Assembly: GCA_012523925.1 (NCBI GenBank)
Contig: JAAYSQ010000056.1
Span: forward strand, 1-42,085
DNA: 42,085 bases
Reading direction: 5' to 3'
Source of the DNA: Clostridiales bacterium
GTDB lineage: Bacteria > Bacillota > Clostridia > Lachnospirales > Lachnospiraceae
The notes beneath the pieces are model-generated. The model made no database searches, had not been told where the DNA came from, and saw nothing but the letters and a program-made list of their open reading frames with translations. Positions 3,312-36,735 of the stretch are shown one piece after another (positions within the stretch are counted from its first letter, which is position 1; each line of letters starts with the position of its first letter). The translations under genes were made by a program, and so were the position numbers.

Positions 3312-4046
3312 ATGCGTTTAATATTGGTTTTACTATTTTTAATTCTATTTTTTATAATAAGTATTCCATTATTCATAATTGAATATATCATCGGCAAGTT
3401 TAGCCATCGCGCAAAAGTGGCAAGTTCACAGAAGATTGTCGTTTGGGCTTTCCGTGTTATTCTATTCATTAGCGGCGTTAAATACACTGCAATTGGTATA
3501 GATAATGTTCCGAAAGATGAAGCCGTATTATATGTTGCAAATCACAGAAGCTACTTCGATATTCTGGTTTCTTATGTTACAGTACCCACCTTAACCGGAT
3601 TTATAGCGAAGAAAGAAATACGTAAAGTTCCTTTTTTGAGAACCTGGATGGAATTTCTGCAATGCCTCTTCCTTGACCGCAATGACGTTCGCCAAGGTAT
3701 GAAGGTGATTCTTCAAGCGATAGAGCAAGTAAAAAATGGTTACTCCATATTTATTTCACCAGAGGGGACCCGTAGCCCGGGAAATGAAATGCTTCCATTT
3801 AAGGCGGGTAGCTTTAAAATTGCTGAAAAAAGCGGATGTGCTATTATTCCAGTTTCTATATCCAATACGGAAGCCATATTCGAAAATCAGCAGCCATGGA
3901 TTCGAAAAGCTCATGTTGTAATTGAATACGGCAAACCGATTTACCCAAAAACTCTGGAGAAAGCGCAATTAAAGTCACTTAGCACCTATGTACAGGGAAT
4001 TATAAAGGACACACTGGATAAAAACGATTCTTTAGTTAAATATTAA
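3312..4046 (+). CDS. plsC: 1-acyl-sn-glycerol-3-phosphate acyltransferase (PlsC family)
   Basis: Adds the second acyl chain to lysophosphatidate, giving phosphatidate, the precursor of membrane phospholipids; acts at the inner face of the membrane. The 244-residue protein has a hydrophobic N-terminus (about 3-28), the acyltransferase motif I NHRSYFD (77-83, catalytic His and Asp), a second block around FLDRND (120-125) and motif III PEGTRS (150-155), in the expected order and spacing. The ATG follows GGAGGTG with good spacing. It starts 72 bases after the VanY gene with no terminator between, so the two may be cotranscribed. Other acyltransferases of the LPLAT superfamily share these motifs, so the exact acceptor is inferred. 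Confidence 0.92.
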   Translation: MRLILVLLFLILFFIISIPLFIIEYIIGKFSHRAKVASSQKIVVWAFRVILFISGVKYTAIGIDNVPKDEAVLYVANHRSYFDILVSYVTVPTLTGFIAKKEIRKVPFLRTWMEFLQCLFLDRNDVRQGMKVILQAIEQVKNGYSIFISPEGTRSPGNEMLPFKAGSFKIAEKSGCAIIPVSISNTEAIFENQQPWIRKAHVVIEYGKPIYPKTLEKAQLKSLSTYVQGIIKDTLDKNDSLVKY

Positions 4047-4256
4047 GTAGAGATTTGCTATCGATATTATTTACACTTAATTTGACTGACTTAGTCGATG
4101 CAACTTGTATTTAAGCGAATATCGCGATCATTGTCGAACAAAATTTCAGGTATTTTCTATTTTACTATTTATTTTTTTATAAAAAGATGGTACAATTAAC
4201 GATGCCCTGAACTGGGACACGCTAGAAAACGTACAATATTAGGAGGTACATAGTTC

Positions 4257-4712
4257 ATGGATACATTAACAATCGTATTACTTGTTGTTGCCGTAGTAGT
4301 TATTGCGGTTTTCGTTGCATTATATTTTGTAGGAAAGAAACTTCAGCAAAGGCAGGAAGATTCCGAAGAACAAATGAAAGCAGCAGCTCAGACGGTTTCA
4401 ATGCTGGTTATTGATAAGAAGATGATGAAATTAAAGGAAGCAAACCTTCCTAAGATTGTACTTGATCAAACACCGAAGTATATGAGAGGATCCAAGGTTC
4501 CTATCGTAAAAGCAAAAATCGGACCAAAAATTATGTCCTTAATCTGTGATGCTAAGGTATTTGAAGTTATTCCAGTTAAAAAGGAAGTAAAGGCAGTTCT
4601 AAGCGGTATTTACATTATGGATGTAAGAGGGCTTCGAAGCGGCCTTGATACTAAGAAAGAAAAGCAAGGGTTTTTCAAGAGAATCACAGGCAAATTTAAA
4701 AAAGAAAAATAA
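4257..4712 (+). CDS. Small single-pass membrane protein of unknown function
   Basis: I do not recognise a named family. The 151-residue protein has one strongly hydrophobic N-terminal segment (about 5-27), then a charged cytoplasmic-looking part: a short helical stretch rich in Gln/Glu (31-50), a mixed alpha/beta region with several VIPVKKEVKAV-like beta segments, and a very basic C-terminus ending KKEK. The start ATG follows AGGAGG. A TACAAT with an upstream TG (TGGTACAAT, 4188-4196) about 60 bases before the ATG could be an extended -10 promoter. A clear terminator follows, so it looks like its own transcription unit. The basic tail suggests contact with membrane lipid or nucleic acid (inference). 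Confidence 0.8.
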   Translation: MDTLTIVLLVVAVVVIAVFVALYFVGKKLQQRQEDSEEQMKAAAQTVSMLVIDKKMMKLKEANLPKIVLDQTPKYMRGSKVPIVKAKIGPKIMSLICDAKVFEVIPVKKEVKAVLSGIYIMDVRGLRSGLDTKKEKQGFFKRITGKFKKEK

Positions 4713-4722
4713 AAATCATATT

Positions 4723-4767
4723 CCTCTTACCTTCATGGCATAATTGTTATAAGGTAAGAGGTTTTTT
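4723..4767 (+). terminator. Intrinsic terminator
   Basis: CCTCTTACCTT and AAGGTAAGAGG form a perfect 11-bp stem around a 17-base loop and are followed directly by six T. It ends the unit of the small membrane protein only 20 bases before the next start codon, so the following gene may depend on read-through or on a promoter inside this region. Confidence 0.88.
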
Positions 4768-26932: not shown

Positions 26933-27186
26933 AAAAAAGCCCCTCAATCCCGTAAGGGACCGAAAGACTACTCGGCGGTACCACCCTAATTAGCTGAACT
27001 TCAGCTCTCTTCATTCCGTTAACGCCGGTATACGTCATATTTGGGGGAATTCTATATGAATCAGAATGCCTTTCATATGATGCTCTGAGGCCGGTTCGTT
27101 AGCATCTACATAAGAAGCTTCCACCAAACGCTTCTATCTCTGGAATGCGATTACTAATTACTATCCCTCTTCAACGCAATTTAATG
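26933..27186 (-). promoter_or_regulatory. T-box leader of proS
   Basis: On the minus strand the T-box core AGGGTGGTACCGCC is at 26974-26987, followed by the terminator GTCCCTTACGGGATTGAGGGGC and seven T (26934-26940). Stem I is visible as TAGAAGC/GCTTCTTA around a GTTTGGTGGA loop, with the AGAGA bulge before it. A stem III hairpin AGCTGAAGTTCAGCT also shows. The TGGT of the T-box suits a tRNA with A73, as tRNA-Pro has. A candidate specifier is CCG within AACGAACCGGCC, but its exact position is not certain. It controls proS, and probably cca. Confidence 0.9.
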
Positions 27187-28670: not shown

Positions 28671-29468
28671 TTAATTCATAATTAAAATTTGAACATAAGG
28701 AACCTTTGCAAGATAGGCAGCTTTAGCCTCCTTCATTCCTTCTACCACAGTAAATACATCATCTTTTTTAGTAACTTTGATCACTATATCCAATACCAAT
28801 TCTTCTTTACTATACTCTTCTATCAAATGCTCTAATTCTCCATCATCTTCTGATCTAAAATCATCTTCTCCTACTAATCGTTTGGGAGAAACGAACATTT
28901 TAGTTGTATTCGGATATCCGTTTTTTTCATGTTCCTTTGCTTCTTTTAAAATGATTTCTGCTATTTTCTCAGGTCCACAATAGGTACTATCAATAATTAA
29001 ATTATAATTCCCATAGTCCATATAATTCAATTTATATATTTCCTGATAACGAACTCGTTCGGTAGCAGCACGTTCTGCCAGCATTTTTCTCGCTTCTTCA
29101 AAGGAGGAGTACTGCTCTTCTTTCCCTCGATTGTCATTCATAACTCTTGTGACAGCTTCATCCAAACTGACTGAAACGAACACTTTAAATGATTTTTCTA
29201 CAAAGTTCCAAGCGAGTCTCGAATCAAAAATAATATTTTTATCCGGATTTTCTTTTGAGATTTTAGCAGTTGCATCATCAATCATATGGTCGTATTTATG
29301 ATTACTTCGCATCAATTGATTTAATTCCAAAGTCGTCATTGACATTTCTCTTGCCAACTCTCGCTGAACTTTACCTGTTGAATATATCTCATATTGATGT
29401 TTTTCACTCAATATCTTACATATGGTTGATTTACCGCTTCCTAGATTTCCCGTTATCGTTATATGCAT
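28671..29468 (-). CDS. Cytidylate-kinase-like P-loop kinase with C-terminal extension
   Basis: A 265-residue cytosolic protein. The N-terminal 180 residues are a nucleoside-monophosphate-kinase-type P-loop fold: TITGNLGSGKSTICKIL (4-20, Walker A GNLGSGKST), a conserved DSRLAWNFV block (about 82-90) and an Arg-rich lid region (about 125-140). This resembles the archaeal-type/cytidylate-kinase-like family (Cmk2). An unusual 75-residue C-terminal region follows, Glu-rich first, then with alternating beta strands LVLDIVIKVTKKDDVFTVVE. Full-length bacterial Cmk usually lacks this tail. Candidate substrates are CMP/dCMP or another small nucleotide; this is not established. It has its own promoter at 29545-29573. 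Confidence 0.78.
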   Translation of the reverse strand: MHITITGNLGSGKSTICKILSEKHQYEIYSTGKVQRELAREMSMTTLELNQLMRSNHKYDHMIDDATAKISKENPDKNIIFDSRLAWNFVEKSFKVFVSVSLDEAVTRVMNDNRGKEEQYSSFEEARKMLAERAATERVRYQEIYKLNYMDYGNYNLIIDSTYCGPEKIAEIILKEAKEHEKNGYPNTTKMFVSPKRLVGEDDFRSEDDGELEHLIEEYSKEELVLDIVIKVTKKDDVFTVVEGMKEAKAAYLAKVPYVQILIMN

Positions 29469-29608: not shown

Positions 29609-30184
29609 TTAATTTAGAAGAATTAAATTCGCTTGAAGAATCCTCACCTCATCTATTTCATGGGTTACAATAATCACAGTTTTTCCGGCTGTTTTCTCTT
29701 TCACATATTCAATAACTTTCTGTTTTAAGCTAGAATCAAATCCCTTAAAGGGTTCATCCATAATAATCAAATTACTTTGGTGTAACATTGCTCTTATAAT
29801 AGAAACTCTTCGTCGCATACCTCCACTGAGTGTATGAACTGGTTTATTCTTATACTCACTTAAGTCTATTTTGGCAAATTCTTGCTCAATTTGATTTACT
29901 GTAATCTTCTTGTCACATACCAGCTTGACATTCGAAATGGCATCCCAATGCTCTATTAATCGATCTTCTTGGAATACGGCAGCAATTAGTTTATCTTCTA
30001 AACCTTGTATCTCACCAGAATCTGGTTGTTCTAATCCCATTAAAAGATTAATCAATGTCGTTTTTCCAACGCCCGAAGGACCCATTATACAATTCAAACA
30101 CCCTTCTTTAAAGGTTAAATTTACTTTATTTAATACAAGATTTTGCTTGTATCGTTTTACTATGTTAATTAGATTGATATCCAT
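29609..30184 (-). CDS. ABC transporter ATP-binding subunit (SsuB/TauB-like)
   Basis: Cytosolic energy subunit of an importer. The 191-residue protein, starting at ATG 30184 behind AGAGGAG, is short for the family (usually about 240). Still, all motifs are present: Walker A GPSGVGKT (35-42), Q-loop Gln72, signature LSGGM (119-123), Walker B LIIMDEP (139-145) and switch His175 in VTHEIDEV. It is the last gene of the unit: regulator, binding protein, permease, ATPase. The stop lies soon after the H-switch, so the usual C-terminal regulatory part is missing. Substrate unknown; family members take up sulfonates, taurine, nitrate or thiamine precursors. Confidence 0.9.
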   Translation of the reverse strand: MDINLINIVKRYKQNLVLNKVNLTFKEGCLNCIMGPSGVGKTTLINLLMGLEQPDSGEIQGLEDKLIAAVFQEDRLIEHWDAISNVKLVCDKKITVNQIEQEFAKIDLSEYKNKPVHTLSGGMRRRVSIIRAMLHQSNLIIMDEPFKGFDSSLKQKVIEYVKEKTAGKTVIIVTHEIDEVRILQANLILLN

Positions 30185-30265
30185 GAAATCTCCTCTTAAT
30201 AACTTATCACAGTTCACACGCGATTATTAGCATGCCCATTTCTTTATAATACAGAATTCTATTCT

Positions 30266-31075
30266 TTACTCTTCTTTAAAATTTTTTCCTTGACTATCTA
30301 TCGTACGATATCGTAGATGCTTTAATATAAGTATCACAATATTTTCAAACAGTATACTAATTATGATAATAACTATGGTCCATGCAAATAATTCGTTTGT
30401 CATTAAGTATATTTTTGATTCATACAGCCATTCGCCGATGGAACCAGAAGGAATTCCTATTACCTCAGCTGCAATTCCTGCCTTCCAGCAAAATCCCAAC
30501 CCTACGGAAACAGCGGAATAAAAATACGGCATAACGGTAGGAAAATAGATTGCTTTTACCTTTTTCCACCTGCTTAAACGAAATACCTTAGCCATTTCTA
30601 AAAGTTTTTGATCCCTTGCAAACAAGCCCTGTAATACATTGGTATAAATCATTGGTACAACCATAAGAAAGGCGATAAGAATCGATAAATTACTTGCTTT
30701 CGTCCATAGAAGTGCAAGAATTATAAAAGAAGCAACTGGCGTAGCTTTGATTACCTTAAAAATGGGATTAATCAACTCTTTCACAATCCAATTGTTATAA
30801 GAGAGTATCGCCAATAATATTCCCAAAACCATCGCCAATAGGAAACCAAGCACAATTCTTATAAAGGAAAACGCAATGGCCTGCCAAAATGCTATCTGTC
30901 CTGCCAAATCCCATAATGTATTTAAAACAGTAGTGGGAGATACTAGAAATATTTCATTATCAATCAAACGGTATAAAATTTCCCAAAAAAGGAGCCAAAA
31001 GCATATAACAAGTATTCTGACTCCCCAGCGGTTAAGCAAAACAGACTTCGCTACCGAATCGCTTTTTCTTGCCAT
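30266..31075 (-). CDS. ABC transporter permease (SsuC/TauC-like)
   Basis: Membrane subunit of the importer. About 269 residues from the ATG at 31075, six hydrophobic segments. The EAA-like coupling loop is visible as AEVIGIPSGSIGEWLYESKI (about 219-238), and the earlier stretch WDLAGQIAFWQAIAFSFIRIVLGF is typical of BPD permeases of the sulfonate/nitrate/thiamine group. An alternative start at 31081 is only 3 bases from AAGGAG, so the second ATG is preferred. It lies between the substrate-binding protein and the ATPase on the same strand. Confidence 0.88.
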   Translation of the reverse strand: MARKSDSVAKSVLLNRWGVRILVICFWLLFWEILYRLIDNEIFLVSPTTVLNTLWDLAGQIAFWQAIAFSFIRIVLGFLLAMVLGILLAILSYNNWIVKELINPIFKVIKATPVASFIILALLWTKASNLSILIAFLMVVPMIYTNVLQGLFARDQKLLEMAKVFRLSRWKKVKAIYFPTVMPYFYSAVSVGLGFCWKAGIAAEVIGIPSGSIGEWLYESKIYLMTNELFAWTIVIIIISILFENIVILILKHLRYRTIDSQGKNFKEE

Positions 31076-31235
31076 ATGCATTCGCTCCTTCTATCATTGT
31101 TTATTAAAATCTAAGCTTTCATACAAAGTACTATCCAGATCTATATAAATAAGCGTACCTCTAATTAATGCCTGCAGATTTTGGGACACATTATCTAGAG
31201 ATATCAGTATTTATCAGATGATCTTCTCTAAACTT

Positions 31236-32348
31236 TTAATCCTCTGTAATATAGTAGAAATCATCTGCTGGAAGTGCTCCTCCTATAGACTTTGGATTTT
31301 GATTATAAAGAGCCGTGAGATAGCCACTAACCTTTTCCTTCATTTCATCCCCCTGGATAAAAGTAATATTACTAAAAGGAATTGCTTTCTGGGCAATGGC
31401 AGCTTTGAAAATTCCAAACTTTTCAATAAGCACTGCAGCTTCCTCTACATTTTCATTAACATAATCTGTAGATGCACGATATTCCGCAAGGAACGAATCG
31501 ACTGCTTCTTTATTCTCCTGTAGAAAATCACTGCGAACAACTACAACACCAGTAACGACACTGCTGCCATCAGTGCTTACCGCTTCCCACTCTTTCGTAA
31601 CATCAAGTGCAATTCTTACCTTATCATTATTCATCATAACCGTTGTAACAAAAGGCTGGGGTAACATAGCAACTGCATTCTCAGCTTCACTTAAGCTAGC
31701 TGCAACCTCTGTGGCTTCCGATTTATATTCAACTTGAACATCCTTTTCCGGATCCATTCCATTACCTGTTAATAAATAGTTTAGGGTATATTGTGGAGTT
31801 GTTCCTTTTCCTGTTGAATAGATTGTCTTTCCTTTCAGGTCCCCTACGCTGTTAATCGCATCGCCGGTCTCAATGATATAAAGCACACCTAAAGTATTAA
31901 TTCCAGCTAATGTAATATTGCCATTGGTATTATTATATAGTACTGAAGCTAAATTACAAGGCACCGCTGCAATATCAATCTCACCTTTGGCAAGTGCTGC
32001 GCTAAGTTCATCTGCTGCACCAGCTATTTTAAAAGAATAGTTGTTGCTGGTTTCATTATTCTCAGCATCTTCCATGACTTTAATCATCCCCATGGAAGTT
32101 GGTCCTTTTAATGCCCCGATGTGAATATCAATTTTATCTGTTGCAGCATTCGTATCCTTATCCTCTAATTCCTCTAAATCATCCCTGCTGTTTTCCTCAT
32201 TCTGTATCGGTTCCTGTGTTGGTTCCGGCGTCACTGTAACTTCCTGCTTTCTTGCATCTTTGCTAACCTTAGCTTCATTATCCTTCGTGCAGCCGGCAAA
32301 TACCATCATACATAGAACGAGTAAAAGTAATACTTTCAATTTCTTCAT
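31236..32348 (-). CDS. ABC transporter substrate-binding lipoprotein (NMT1/THI5-like or SsuA-like)
   Basis: Extracytoplasmic binding protein, 370 residues. The signal peptide ends in lipobox VFAGC with the lipid-acceptor Cys20. A Glu/Asp/Thr-rich linker (about 25-70) leads to a type II periplasmic-binding fold beginning IDIHIGALKGPTSMGMIKV (about 74-92). The block AALAKGEIDIAAVPCNLASVLYNN (about 115-138) is typical of NMT1/SsuA-like proteins. Family ligands include sulfonates, nitrate and the thiamine precursor HMP; the ligand here is not known. The start ATG follows TGGAGG. The gene belongs to the operon behind the structured leader at 32673-32821. Confidence 0.9.
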   Translation of the reverse strand: MKKLKVLLLLVLCMMVFAGCTKDNEAKVSKDARKQEVTVTPEPTQEPIQNEENSRDDLEELEDKDTNAATDKIDIHIGALKGPTSMGMIKVMEDAENNETSNNYSFKIAGAADELSAALAKGEIDIAAVPCNLASVLYNNTNGNITLAGINTLGVLYIIETGDAINSVGDLKGKTIYSTGKGTTPQYTLNYLLTGNGMDPEKDVQVEYKSEATEVAASLSEAENAVAMLPQPFVTTVMMNNDKVRIALDVTKEWEAVSTDGSSVVTGVVVVRSDFLQENKEAVDSFLAEYRASTDYVNENVEEAAVLIEKFGIFKAAIAQKAIPFSNITFIQGDEMKEKVSGYLTALYNQNPKSIGGALPADDFYYITED

Positions 32349-32392: not shown

Positions 32393-32638
32393 TTATTTTT
32401 TTGAATAAATGGTTTTAACACTGACACCTTTTAGCATACCTAGCTTACCAGCTAATGTACTAATCGTGTTGGCTTCGGCATTCACTACGATACTAATAAT
32501 GCTAATATCCTTTTCCCTATATGGAAGGCCCATTCTGCCAATAATATATTGTCCATAATCATGGAGTATACTATTTAATTTCTCTACAGCTTCCATATCC
32601 TCAACAACGATTCCTATTAAAGCTACCCGTGTTTCCAA
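32393..32638 (-). CDS. TM1266-family regulator (iron-only hydrogenase system regulator-like)
   Basis: An 81-residue protein resembling TM1266, a small ferredoxin-fold protein with an ACT/NikR-like C-terminal domain, usually placed beside hydEFG [FeFe]-hydrogenase maturation genes. I see ETRVALIGIVVEDMEAVEKL at the start and ISIISIVVNAEANTISTLAGKLG in the second half, ending in a basic VKTIYSKK. I choose a TTG start at 32638, since GAGGTGG lies 8 bases upstream and other in-frame starts are inside the leader. No hydrogenase gene is in the window. Here it heads an ABC importer operon, 44 bases before the binding protein. A DNA- or metal-responsive role is possible but unproven. Confidence 0.8.
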   Translation of the reverse strand: METRVALIGIVVEDMEAVEKLNSILHDYGQYIIGRMGLPYREKDISIISIVVNAEANTISTLAGKLGMLKGVSVKTIYSKK

Positions 32639-32672: not shown

Positions 32673-32705
32673 AAAAAAATCCCTATGCCATAAAGACATA
32701 GGGAA
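32673..32705 (-). terminator. Intrinsic terminator inside the leader of the TM1266/ABC operon
   Basis: On the minus strand ATTCCCTATG pairs with CATAGGGAT around a short loop, followed by seven T. It sits 35 bases before the TTG start of the regulator, inside the transcript, so it must be conditional. Confidence 0.88.
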
Positions 32706-32821
32706 TCGCATCCTTCACCGCTTCGTAAATCTTTCTGCCCGGGAGAACCCCGCAGCCATTAGAACTACGTGCTTTATTGCTCTATCCTATGCCTTCTCGT
32801 CAGGCGTACCTTTCGTTTGGC
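32706..32821 (-). promoter_or_regulatory. Structured leader, candidate riboswitch of unassigned class
   Basis: The transcript from 32828-32856 begins at about 32821 with GCCAAACGAAAGG. It then has a hairpin GCCT...AGGC, and later CTGC/GCAG and GGG/CCC in GGCTGCGGGGTTCTCC (about 32728-32757), and GCGGTGAAGGATGCG before the terminator. A CCTATGCC copy (32786-32793, plus strand) repeats the terminator arm (32682-32689), so this segment can compete for the other arm and act as antiterminator. No known class fits clearly: no TPP, SAM, T-box, glycine, lysine or cobalamin signature. GCGGGGTT resembles part of GEMM-I (c-di-GMP), but the rest does not. Confidence 0.68.
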
Positions 32822-32827
32822 AAGATA

Positions 32828-32856
32828 ATTTTAGCACTTTGTTAATAAAATGTCAA
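32828..32856 (-). promoter_or_regulatory. Strong sigma-A promoter for the TM1266/ABC operon
   Basis: On the minus strand TTGACA (32851-32856), 17-base spacer, TGCTAAAAT with -10 TAAAAT (32828-32833). Consensus -35 and extended -10. It lies just after the stop codon of the response regulator gene. Confidence 0.85.
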
Positions 32857-35282: not shown

Positions 35283-36467
35283 TTACAGATATTCTTTTAA
35301 TTCATCAACTTTATCAAGTCTCTCCCATGAAAGATTCAAGTCATTTCTTCCGAAGTGCCCATATGCTGCGGTCTGCTTATAAATTGGTCTTCTAAGGTCT
35401 AACATTTTAATAATTCCAGCTGGTCGCAAATCAAAGTGTTTACGAATAATGGTCACCAATTCTTCCTCGGTCAACTTTCCTGTACCGAAGGTATCTACCA
35501 TGACTGAAGTGGGTTCGGCAACACCGATTGCATAGGATAATTGAATTTCACATTTATCTGCTAGTCCAGCTGCTACTATATTCTTAGCTACATAACGTGC
35601 AGCATAGGAGGCAGAGCGGTCTACCTTAGTACAATCCTTACCAGAGAAGGCACCGCCACCATGTCTTGCATAACCACCATAGGTATCTACAATAATTTTT
35701 CTTCCTGTCAAACCGCTATCACCATTTGGACCCCCAATAACAAAACGACCGGTAGGATTAATGAAGAACTTTGTGTTCTCATCTACCAGCTCTGCTGGAA
35801 GAATTGGGTCTAGTACATACTTTTTTATGTCCTTACGAAGCTGTTCACCGGTAACATCCTCGTCATGCTGTGTGGAAAGTACAACCGCATCAAGATGAAT
35901 TGGCTTACCGCTTTCATCGTACTCAACAGTAACCTGTGACTTCCCATCTGGTCTTAAATATTTTAATACGCCATCTTTTCTTATCTTAGTAAGCTGTCTT
36001 GTTAACTTATGTGCTAATGATATAGGATAAGGCATATATTCCTCAGTTTCATTGGATGCATATCCAAACATCATACCCTGATCTCCTGCTCCAATGGATA
36101 GATCCTCATCCTTCACTTTGCTTTCCTTTGCTTCTATGGATGCATCAACACCCATAGCGATATCCTTGGACTGCTCGTCCAATGCTACGATAACACCGCA
36201 AGTATTGGCGTCGAATCCATAATCAGATTTATCATATCCAATTTCTCTTATAGTATCTCTCACTATTTTTTGAATATCAACATACGCGTTAGTAGTAATC
36301 TCACCCATAACAAGAACTAATCCAGTTGTAATTGCTGTTTCACAGGCAACTCGACTCATTGGATCTTGCTCCATTAAGGCATCTAATACTGCGTCAGATA
36401 TCTGGTCACAAATTTTATCTGGATGTCCTTCGGTCACTGACTCTGAAGTAAATAATCTTTTCTGCAT
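35283..36467 (-). CDS. metK: S-adenosylmethionine synthetase
   Basis: Makes S-adenosylmethionine from methionine and ATP in the cytosol. The 394-residue protein has the start [29 protein letters not shown], the [15 protein letters not shown] block (about 117-128), [26 protein letters not shown] (about 241-266) and [19 protein letters not shown] (about 270-288), which are the diagnostic AdoMet synthetase motifs. The ATG follows AGGAGGAA. A SAM-I riboswitch with terminator lies upstream, so its own product should shut it off: a direct feedback loop. It is a single-gene unit between murA and the two-component operon. Confidence 0.98.
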
Positions 36468-36638: not shown

Positions 36639-36735
36639 CTCCTATTGTTCGATTACTCGCTCAGGTTGGCACCTTCCTTATAAGGGGTTGCCGTGACTTC
36701 ACAGAGCCTTTACTCTCCGTCACTCTGAATAAGAG
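36639..36735 (-). promoter_or_regulatory. SAM-I riboswitch (S-box) for metK
   Basis: Minus-strand aptamer with P1 CTCTTAT (36729-36735) pairing with ATAGGAG (36639-36645). The conserved core reads CAGAGTGACGGAGAG, GGCTCTGTGAAGTCACGGCAACC, GAAGGTGCCAACCTGAGCG, typical of the SAM-I class. High SAM should stabilise P1 and permit the terminator at 36590-36620. Its gene is metK. Confidence 0.95.

Follow-up and report, generated by a model that had tools for sequence, protein, structure and literature searches.

A conserved leader RNA, very probably a transcription attenuator, in the [FeFe]-hydrogenase maturation regulon of Clostridia and other Firmicutes

Introduction

Tandem-aptamer riboswitches, those for glycine among others, have two similar modules placed serially in the 5' leader and a terminator-based expression platform. 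The NMT1-type and ykkC riboswitches occur upstream of NitT/TauT-like importers, and in the protein-dependent attenuators of the PyrR and HutP type the first gene of the operon encodes the RNA-binding regulator. The Rfam family RF01055 we take to be the Moco and Wco RNA. A passage of PMC9481103 reports hydrogenase genes preceded by Wco tandems.

The leader RNA described here precedes a TM1266 family gene and an ABC importer in the window, i.e. the whole stretch of 42,085 nucleotides that was analysed. It has the same two-module series and terminator platform as the tandem-aptamer riboswitches, but its modules are much smaller and covariance models give no match. Like the Moco and Wco RNA it is a cofactor-linked leader, yet it has no match to that Rfam family and belongs to a different regulon. 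Both this leader and the NMT1-type and ykkC riboswitches stand upstream of a THI5/SsuA-like substrate-binding protein, whereas no Rfam match was obtained here and the importer is tied to TM1266 and hyd genes. By analogy with PyrR and HutP, the first gene, TM1266, would be the RNA-binding regulator; its product, however, weakly resembles NikR_C, not PyrR or HutP.

Materials and methods

Model R1 is a two-module model built from 26 leaders of the genus, with the window included in the training. Models R2 and R3 both describe module 2, the former from 14 copies, three of them genus leaders, and the latter from 35 copies, none of them from the 34 genus genomes. The genome searches with these RNA models used no protein information. 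Alignment A1 contains 26 genus leaders and omits the truncated or inserted leaders L014, L022, L034 and L037, and also L019. In the MAFFT alignment A3 two registers of the single module were mixed, and no model was built from it. HydE, HydG, HydF and TM1266 were confirmed by NCBIfam in the examples L235 and L229 and were named by tblastn elsewhere.

Results

Promoter, leader and operon in the window

The features of the locus are as follows.

32828..32856, minus strand: sigma-70-type promoter, TTGACA at 32856-32851, 17 nt, extended -10 TG-TAAAAT at 32833-32828
32673..32821, minus strand: leader RNA from predicted start to U-tract end (promoter, fold and homologues)
32791..32821, minus strand: module 1 (d1), from alignment A1 and pair counts
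32786..32793, minus strand: candidate antiterminator strand GGCAUAGG, the d1 3' strand plus 5 nt, same as the terminator 3' arm
32724..32769, minus strand: module 2 (d2), the window copy being a divergent version of the putative class-wide module
32680..32704, minus strand: intrinsic terminator stem-loop, 10-bp stem, U7 tail at 32679-32673
32393..32638, minus strand: TM1266 family gene (TIGR03959, PF21699), likely TTG start at 32638
31236..32348, minus strand: ABC importer substrate-binding lipoprotein, SsuA/NMT1-like (ORF and domain matches)
30266..31081, minus strand: ABC importer permease (ORF and domain matches)
29609..30217, minus strand: ABC importer ATPase (ORF and domain matches)

The promoter has 11 of 12 consensus matches, and a similar one stands ahead of the leader in most of 36 upstream regions from the genus. 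Transcription is predicted to start about 7 nt past the -10 box, near 32821, and the leader is therefore approximately 149 nt long. The ORF list starts TM1266 at TTG 32674; TTG 32638, which is 35 nt past the U-tract, is the likelier start, as it follows GAGGTGG and gives the family N-terminus METR. On the plus strand CCTATGCC is present twice, at 32786-32793 and 32682-32689. At the RNA level GGCAUAGG (32793-32786) is identical to the 3' arm of the terminator, so that it can compete for the 5' arm. An earlier note on this DNA had described a leader at a strong promoter, an intrinsic terminator 35 bases before the TTG start of the regulator, and an 8-mer common to the upstream part and the terminator arm, and it was correct in all three. 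The predicted fold of the leader beats 195 of 200 dinucleotide shuffles (z -2.4), a modest signal which is partly owed to the terminator.

The TM1266 protein of the window scored 118 bits against TIGR03959 (cut-off 60.8). In Pfam (E<=0.001) it matched its own family only, plus NikR_C below the cut-off, and no DNA-binding domain was found. Structures have been solved for TM1266 (2NZC) and for the importer protein (3HN0), and their listed entries name no ligand. Downstream of the importer (28671-29468, minus strand) there is a Cytidylate-kinase-like protein (PF13189) that exceeds the matched domain in length.

Module architecture and conservation in the genus

The leader begins with a first hairpin, GCC-AAA-CG-AA-AGG-UACG-CCU-GA-CG-AGAA-GGC, after which come AUAGG, another hairpin domain and the intrinsic terminator. 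In module 1, P1 is formed by GCC 32821-32819 and GGC 32793-32791, P2 by CG 32815-32814 and CG 32799-32798, then comes a tandem AA/GA, and P3 is formed by AGG 32811-32809 and CCU 32804-32802 with the loop UACG. The outer helix of module 2 pairs CGUAGUUCU (32769-32761) with AGAUUUACG (32732-32724), with one U-U mismatch, and its interior has a CUGC/GCAG inner stem plus a GGG/CCC hairpin. Both modules consist of P1, an internal loop, P2, a purine-rich 2x2 loop and a short P3, and they are arranged in tandem.

TM1266 is present in 33 of the 34 genus genomes, and the same layout was found in the upstream regions of the genus genes. R1 matched 31 of the 34 genomes (E<=0.1; the tally leaves out the weak second matches G030:C53 and G005:C30, about 28 bits), in 30 of them just upstream of TM1266 and in one (G011, L115) upstream of an importer gene. 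As to the three genomes without a match, G004 has TM1266 without the leader, the sole TM1266 of G020 is divergent and preceded by another leader, and G024, at 61 % completeness, yielded no TM1266. A complete module 2 is missing in some genus leaders (L014, L022, L037), and in L031 the terminator was not found. By eye, the leader was not seen at the TM1266 paralogues L040-L043 or at the orthologue L023.

In alignment A1, 87.1 % of the cells were paired, compared with 78.1 % in shuffles and at most 52.2 % in slid controls; since the boundaries and the structure were drawn by eye from the same sequences, the comparison with the slid controls favours structure. Cells with both sides changed numbered 60, against 23.7 in shuffles. 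P2 of module 1 varies freely in the genus (UCUA/UAGA, UUCA/UGAA, UUUG/CGAA) and the inner P3 pair covaries (G-C, A-U, C-G), while several bases of the purine loops and P3 (AAG, CU, A) are invariant.

Some other arrangements were seen by eye. In L034 (G028:C38), AGAACATGTT-like repeats are inserted between module 1 and the terminator. The divergent TM1266 genes L040 and L042 (G020, G013) have a mutually similar other leader, TTCTGACAC ... GTGAAAGGT, with a terminator-like hairpin at its end. An apparent ArsR-type regulator gene lies just upstream of the leader or of TM1266 in L011, L013, L017 and L023, as judged from the DNA.

Comparison with described RNAs

No family of Rfam 15 reached its gathering score on the leader when the window was searched, and at E<=5 the leader region had sub-threshold matches only. 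The search of the window does find a T-box leader (26952-27183, minus strand, 124.5 bits) and a SAM-I riboswitch (36639-36735, minus strand, 72.9 bits) elsewhere; the ORF at 35283-36467, downstream of the latter, is presumably S-adenosylmethionine synthetase-like. When 47 related loci (16, 13 and 18) were compared with Rfam at E<=1, the seven matches were all below the gathering scores. L10_leader scored 30.6 bits over the motif in L222, its cut-off being 44 (E 0.37). The T-box was rejected as a class for the leader, having no covariance-model match there while the true T-box was recovered, and the GEMM-I c-di-GMP riboswitch likewise, with no covariance-model match on the leader or the 47 related loci. 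The view of the earlier note that known classes do not fit is upheld by this Rfam check, which it had proposed and which left the leader without a confident match to any of them; the resemblance to GEMM-I that it mentioned is not.

The leader RNA was not found in searches of the open-licence literature, nor in passages of PMC9481103, PMC11109978, PMC8632094, PMC8040213 and PMC6239172, and the relevant terms are absent from PMC7266159. The automated human-microbiome candidates of PMC8040213 may include it unnamed. The folded leader RNA is apparently undescribed so far.

Searches beyond the genus

In 60 genomes of the family, R1 gave one strong match, the window itself, and 19 weaker ones, one of which (G103) lies upstream of the importer; six of the weaker matches were viewed as alignments and judged unconvincing. 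The importer protein is present in 60 of 150 sampled family genera. Single-module leaders exist, of the form UCGUUCUGA..GCAU..GGGUNCGUCCC..UGG.AAGGCGA or UUCGUGCUAACCC.AAAGG..CCUGAUGGGAGAAGGCGA, and no such motif was seen by eye at most of the importer genes inspected. From a scan of named genomes, which gave 581 relatives, the best 80 were retained.

R2 was run on 341 class genomes and gave 31 sites in 30 of them (E<1e-3, up to 58 bits), including the training sequences L205, L207 and L208 (the same as L147, L159 and L186). TM1266 lies downstream of 29 of the 30 sites fetched, and also of the 31st (G540:C17); the remaining fetched site stands before hydE-hydG. The phylum gave five sites in 5 of 249 genomes (E<=0.005), all ahead of TM1266, and R3 found 15 sites among 295 order genomes, one per genome (E<=0.005), 14 before TM1266 and one before hydE. 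The three match lists share no genome. In total there are 51 sites in Clostridia and other Firmicutes, 49 upstream of TM1266 and two upstream of hydE, not counting two weak class matches (G472 and G479, about 23 bits, TM1266 not found); these counts are lower bounds because only the best first-look candidates were scored (18 to 118 per genome). At the 49 TM1266 sites the TM1266 match is on the same strand and begins within about 520 nt. As the next target genes, the fetched DNA shows hydE, hydG or hydF at 40 sites and the ABC importer at the other 11. Leaving out the three training sites gives 48 sites (46 TM1266-first and two hydE-first; hyd genes at 40, importer at 8). In G540 the motif precedes both hydE-hydG and TM1266-importer, and these therefore form one regulon. 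No significant match to the RNA model was found at the TM1266 loci in trans (L249-L258).

The RNA, which is regulatory, unlisted, conserved and covarying, belongs to the [FeFe]-hydrogenase maturation regulon. The earlier note had seen it as the leader of a TM1266/ABC-importer operon; the importer is indeed a target, but the element is wider and its main context is TM1266 with hydE, hydG and hydF (40 compared with 11 sites).

The first alignment of module 2, with 14 copies, showed weak covariation (4 both-side-changed cells compared with 2.2; 83 of 500 shuffles as high). With 35 copies, 95.7 % of the cells were paired compared with 90.4 % in shuffles and at most 55.7 % in slid controls, and 25 cells had both sides changed compared with 6.5, in an alignment that leans towards structure because most copies were fetched by covariance model. 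Covarying helices are thus found among the homologues, in the genus and in the 35 module 2 copies, where the earlier note had proposed conserved structured segments and suggested looking for covariation.

Relation of the window copy to the class, and of the two modules to each other

Among 37 genus loci, R3 recovered module 2 at seven, always at the expected place (L033 56, L019 51, L039 28, L028 26, L011 23, L115 21 and L013 18 bits); in L024, L017, L020 and L027 the scores at the expected place were 10-12 bits and not significant. Module 2 of the window itself was found by neither R2 nor R3, being too divergent. Its putative class membership is argued from its orthologues and from R1, whose training set contained the window copy.

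Module 1 of R1 weakly reached single-module leaders of other genera (L083, 22.5 bits, E 0.02; L079, 19.8 bits, E 0.08; L087, 17.8 bits, E 0.2), and R3 reached some of the same leaders (L085 23.9, L083 21.8 and L079 19.1 bits). Matches to shared leaders suggest a relationship between modules 1 and 2, which would make the leader a tandem. As the two-module class alignment A5 aligned module 1 poorly, module 1 was sought automatically in 51 leaders, single-module leaders included, and ranked against shuffles. It ranked <=1 of 40 in 15 of the 51 and <=4 of 40 in 21 of them, where about 6 would be expected; 14 had no fit at all, and the picks in L073 and L079 are unlike the motif. In some of the leaders this search finds a second module of the same architecture ahead of module 2, and tandem homology of the two modules is likely. 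L105 (G192:C4) has two module copies approximately 1.4 kb apart (49 and 40 bits), and the copy adjoining TM1266 overlaps the likely ribosome-binding site.

Mutually exclusive pairing

In the window, GGCAUAGG is complementary to the terminator 5' arm CCUAUGUC at 8 of 8 positions, one of them G-U. One of the 26 genus leaders has no terminator; in 23 of the other 25 (all but L033 and L039) at least 7 of 8 positions of the corresponding 8-mer pair with the 5' arm of the terminator. Letter-shuffled 8-mers reached at least 7 positions in a mean of 2.8 leaders, with a maximum of 10 in 2000 runs.

Terminators are different in other genera, where the module 2 3' strand plus the 18 nt after it fits its own terminator better than those of other loci: the pairing energy with the own terminator arm was -14.4 kcal/mol compared with -12.0 for mismatched ones, and 0 of 20000 permutations were as low (37 leaders). 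The test is conservative because close relatives count as mismatches. It omits 9 of 46 leaders in which no terminator was detected, some of which have one visible by eye (L099, L100, L125, L128), and in L206, L215 and L220 the script chose a doubtful hairpin. By eye, the 3' strand extends into the ribosome-binding site in L105, L066 and L058; these may be translational versions.

When the window transcript is cut in the terminator loop it is predicted to fold with the antiterminator (-38.2), and forcing P1 costs 6.2 kcal/mol. In the minimum-energy fold of the complete 152-nt leader (from 32824) the terminator forms and P1 of module 1 does not; a 157-nt fold starting 5 nt earlier, beyond the likely start, does close P1. 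The pairing swap in the manner of attenuators that was proposed in the earlier note is thus borne out by prediction, and the conserved, covarying and unlisted leader is very probably a transcription attenuator within the [FeFe]-hydrogenase maturation regulon.

Discussion

The RNA-only searches, the covariation and the antiterminator pairing support the idea of a structured leader and widen it to the [FeFe]-hydrogenase maturation regulon. Located before the hydrogenase-maturation genes and the linked importer, the leader can probably turn their transcription on or off when a signal is perceived. Conservation, covariation, gene context and the potential for mutually exclusive pairing were established by computation. 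A covarying domain in the 5' leader, predicted exclusive pairing and association with one pathway (51 of 51 sites) agree with what is generally expected of riboswitches, and we lean towards a riboswitch-like transcription attenuator, of a class outside Rfam, that senses a metabolite. With P1 of module 1 closed, presumably the liganded state, GGCAUAGG would be held and the terminator would form (OFF); with P1 open, GGCAUAGG would be free to pair with CCUAUGUC in the 5' arm of the terminator, giving read-through (ON). Other Firmicutes would have a similar wiring through the 3' strand of module 2. The targets would be TM1266, hydE, hydG, hydF and the TM1266-linked ABC importer. We infer both the OFF direction upon closing of P1 and the direct sensing of a small molecule, linked either to the making of the H-cluster or to the compound that is imported. 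A counterpoint to an aptamer is that P1 of module 1 has only 3 bp and that the modules are small for this role.

A more specific proposal, which we consider unlikely, is that a tandem riboswitch class senses an intermediate, a product or a building block of the H-cluster, e.g. a product or by-product of HydG or the imported compound, and would shut off both maturation and precursor import. In that case an H-cluster-related compound, so far unrecognised, would be delivered by the co-regulated importer.

The TM1266 protein itself could also be the trigger, given how strictly the motif is linked to its gene. It is possible, though somewhat unlikely, that TM1266, perhaps as an oligomer on the two tandem modules, binds the leader and sets the choice between terminator and antiterminator, for its own operon and in trans for hydE and importer operons. 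That 49 of the 51 RNA-only sites are upstream of TM1266 would suit such a role, as would the Pfam result for the protein. In addition, 12 of the 13 genomes with a copy away from TM1266 carry TM1266 elsewhere (G103, G090, G206, G172, G011, G540, G081 and the genomes of L158, L133, L135, L137 and L139); these copies are model-supported, except L158, a training sequence, and with a base rate of 61 % (209 of 341) the count is suggestive only. All 30 class genomes with a strong motif have TM1266, compared with the 209 of 341 overall, but this adds little because it follows mostly from adjacency. Against a role of TM1266 as the trigger, many genomes with TM1266 have no detected motif (209 compared with 32), and the Chloroflexi MAG of L140, which may be incomplete, has a 35-bit motif (R3) and TM1266 was not found in it.

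Attenuators that act through terminators have many triggers, and the window holds a true T-box too, so that short-peptide translation, a tRNA, temperature or a different protein might be the signal for a structured attenuator of this kind. We regard this as improbable, as no T-box or ribosomal-leader family of Rfam matched at threshold and the sequence-conserved internal loops suit a bound partner better than a peptide leader. That the conservation reflects a promoter and a terminator with no regulatory RNA between them, for which the modest single-sequence fold signal could be cited, is hardly credible in view of the covariation, the RNA-only searches that reach one regulon and the antiterminator matching.

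With this leader, [FeFe]-hydrogenase maturation gains a candidate dedicated RNA control element across Firmicutes. The leader also links TM1266, a 'putative regulator', and an orphan ABC importer to this process. Both the signal read by the cell for making active hydrogenase and the role of TM1266 become testable.

As to the imported compound, a clue may come from locus L233, in which a HydE-like radical SAM protein (3740-4726, plus strand; 201 bits compared with the HydE cut-off of 254.6) is encoded directly after the TM1266-ABC importer genes.
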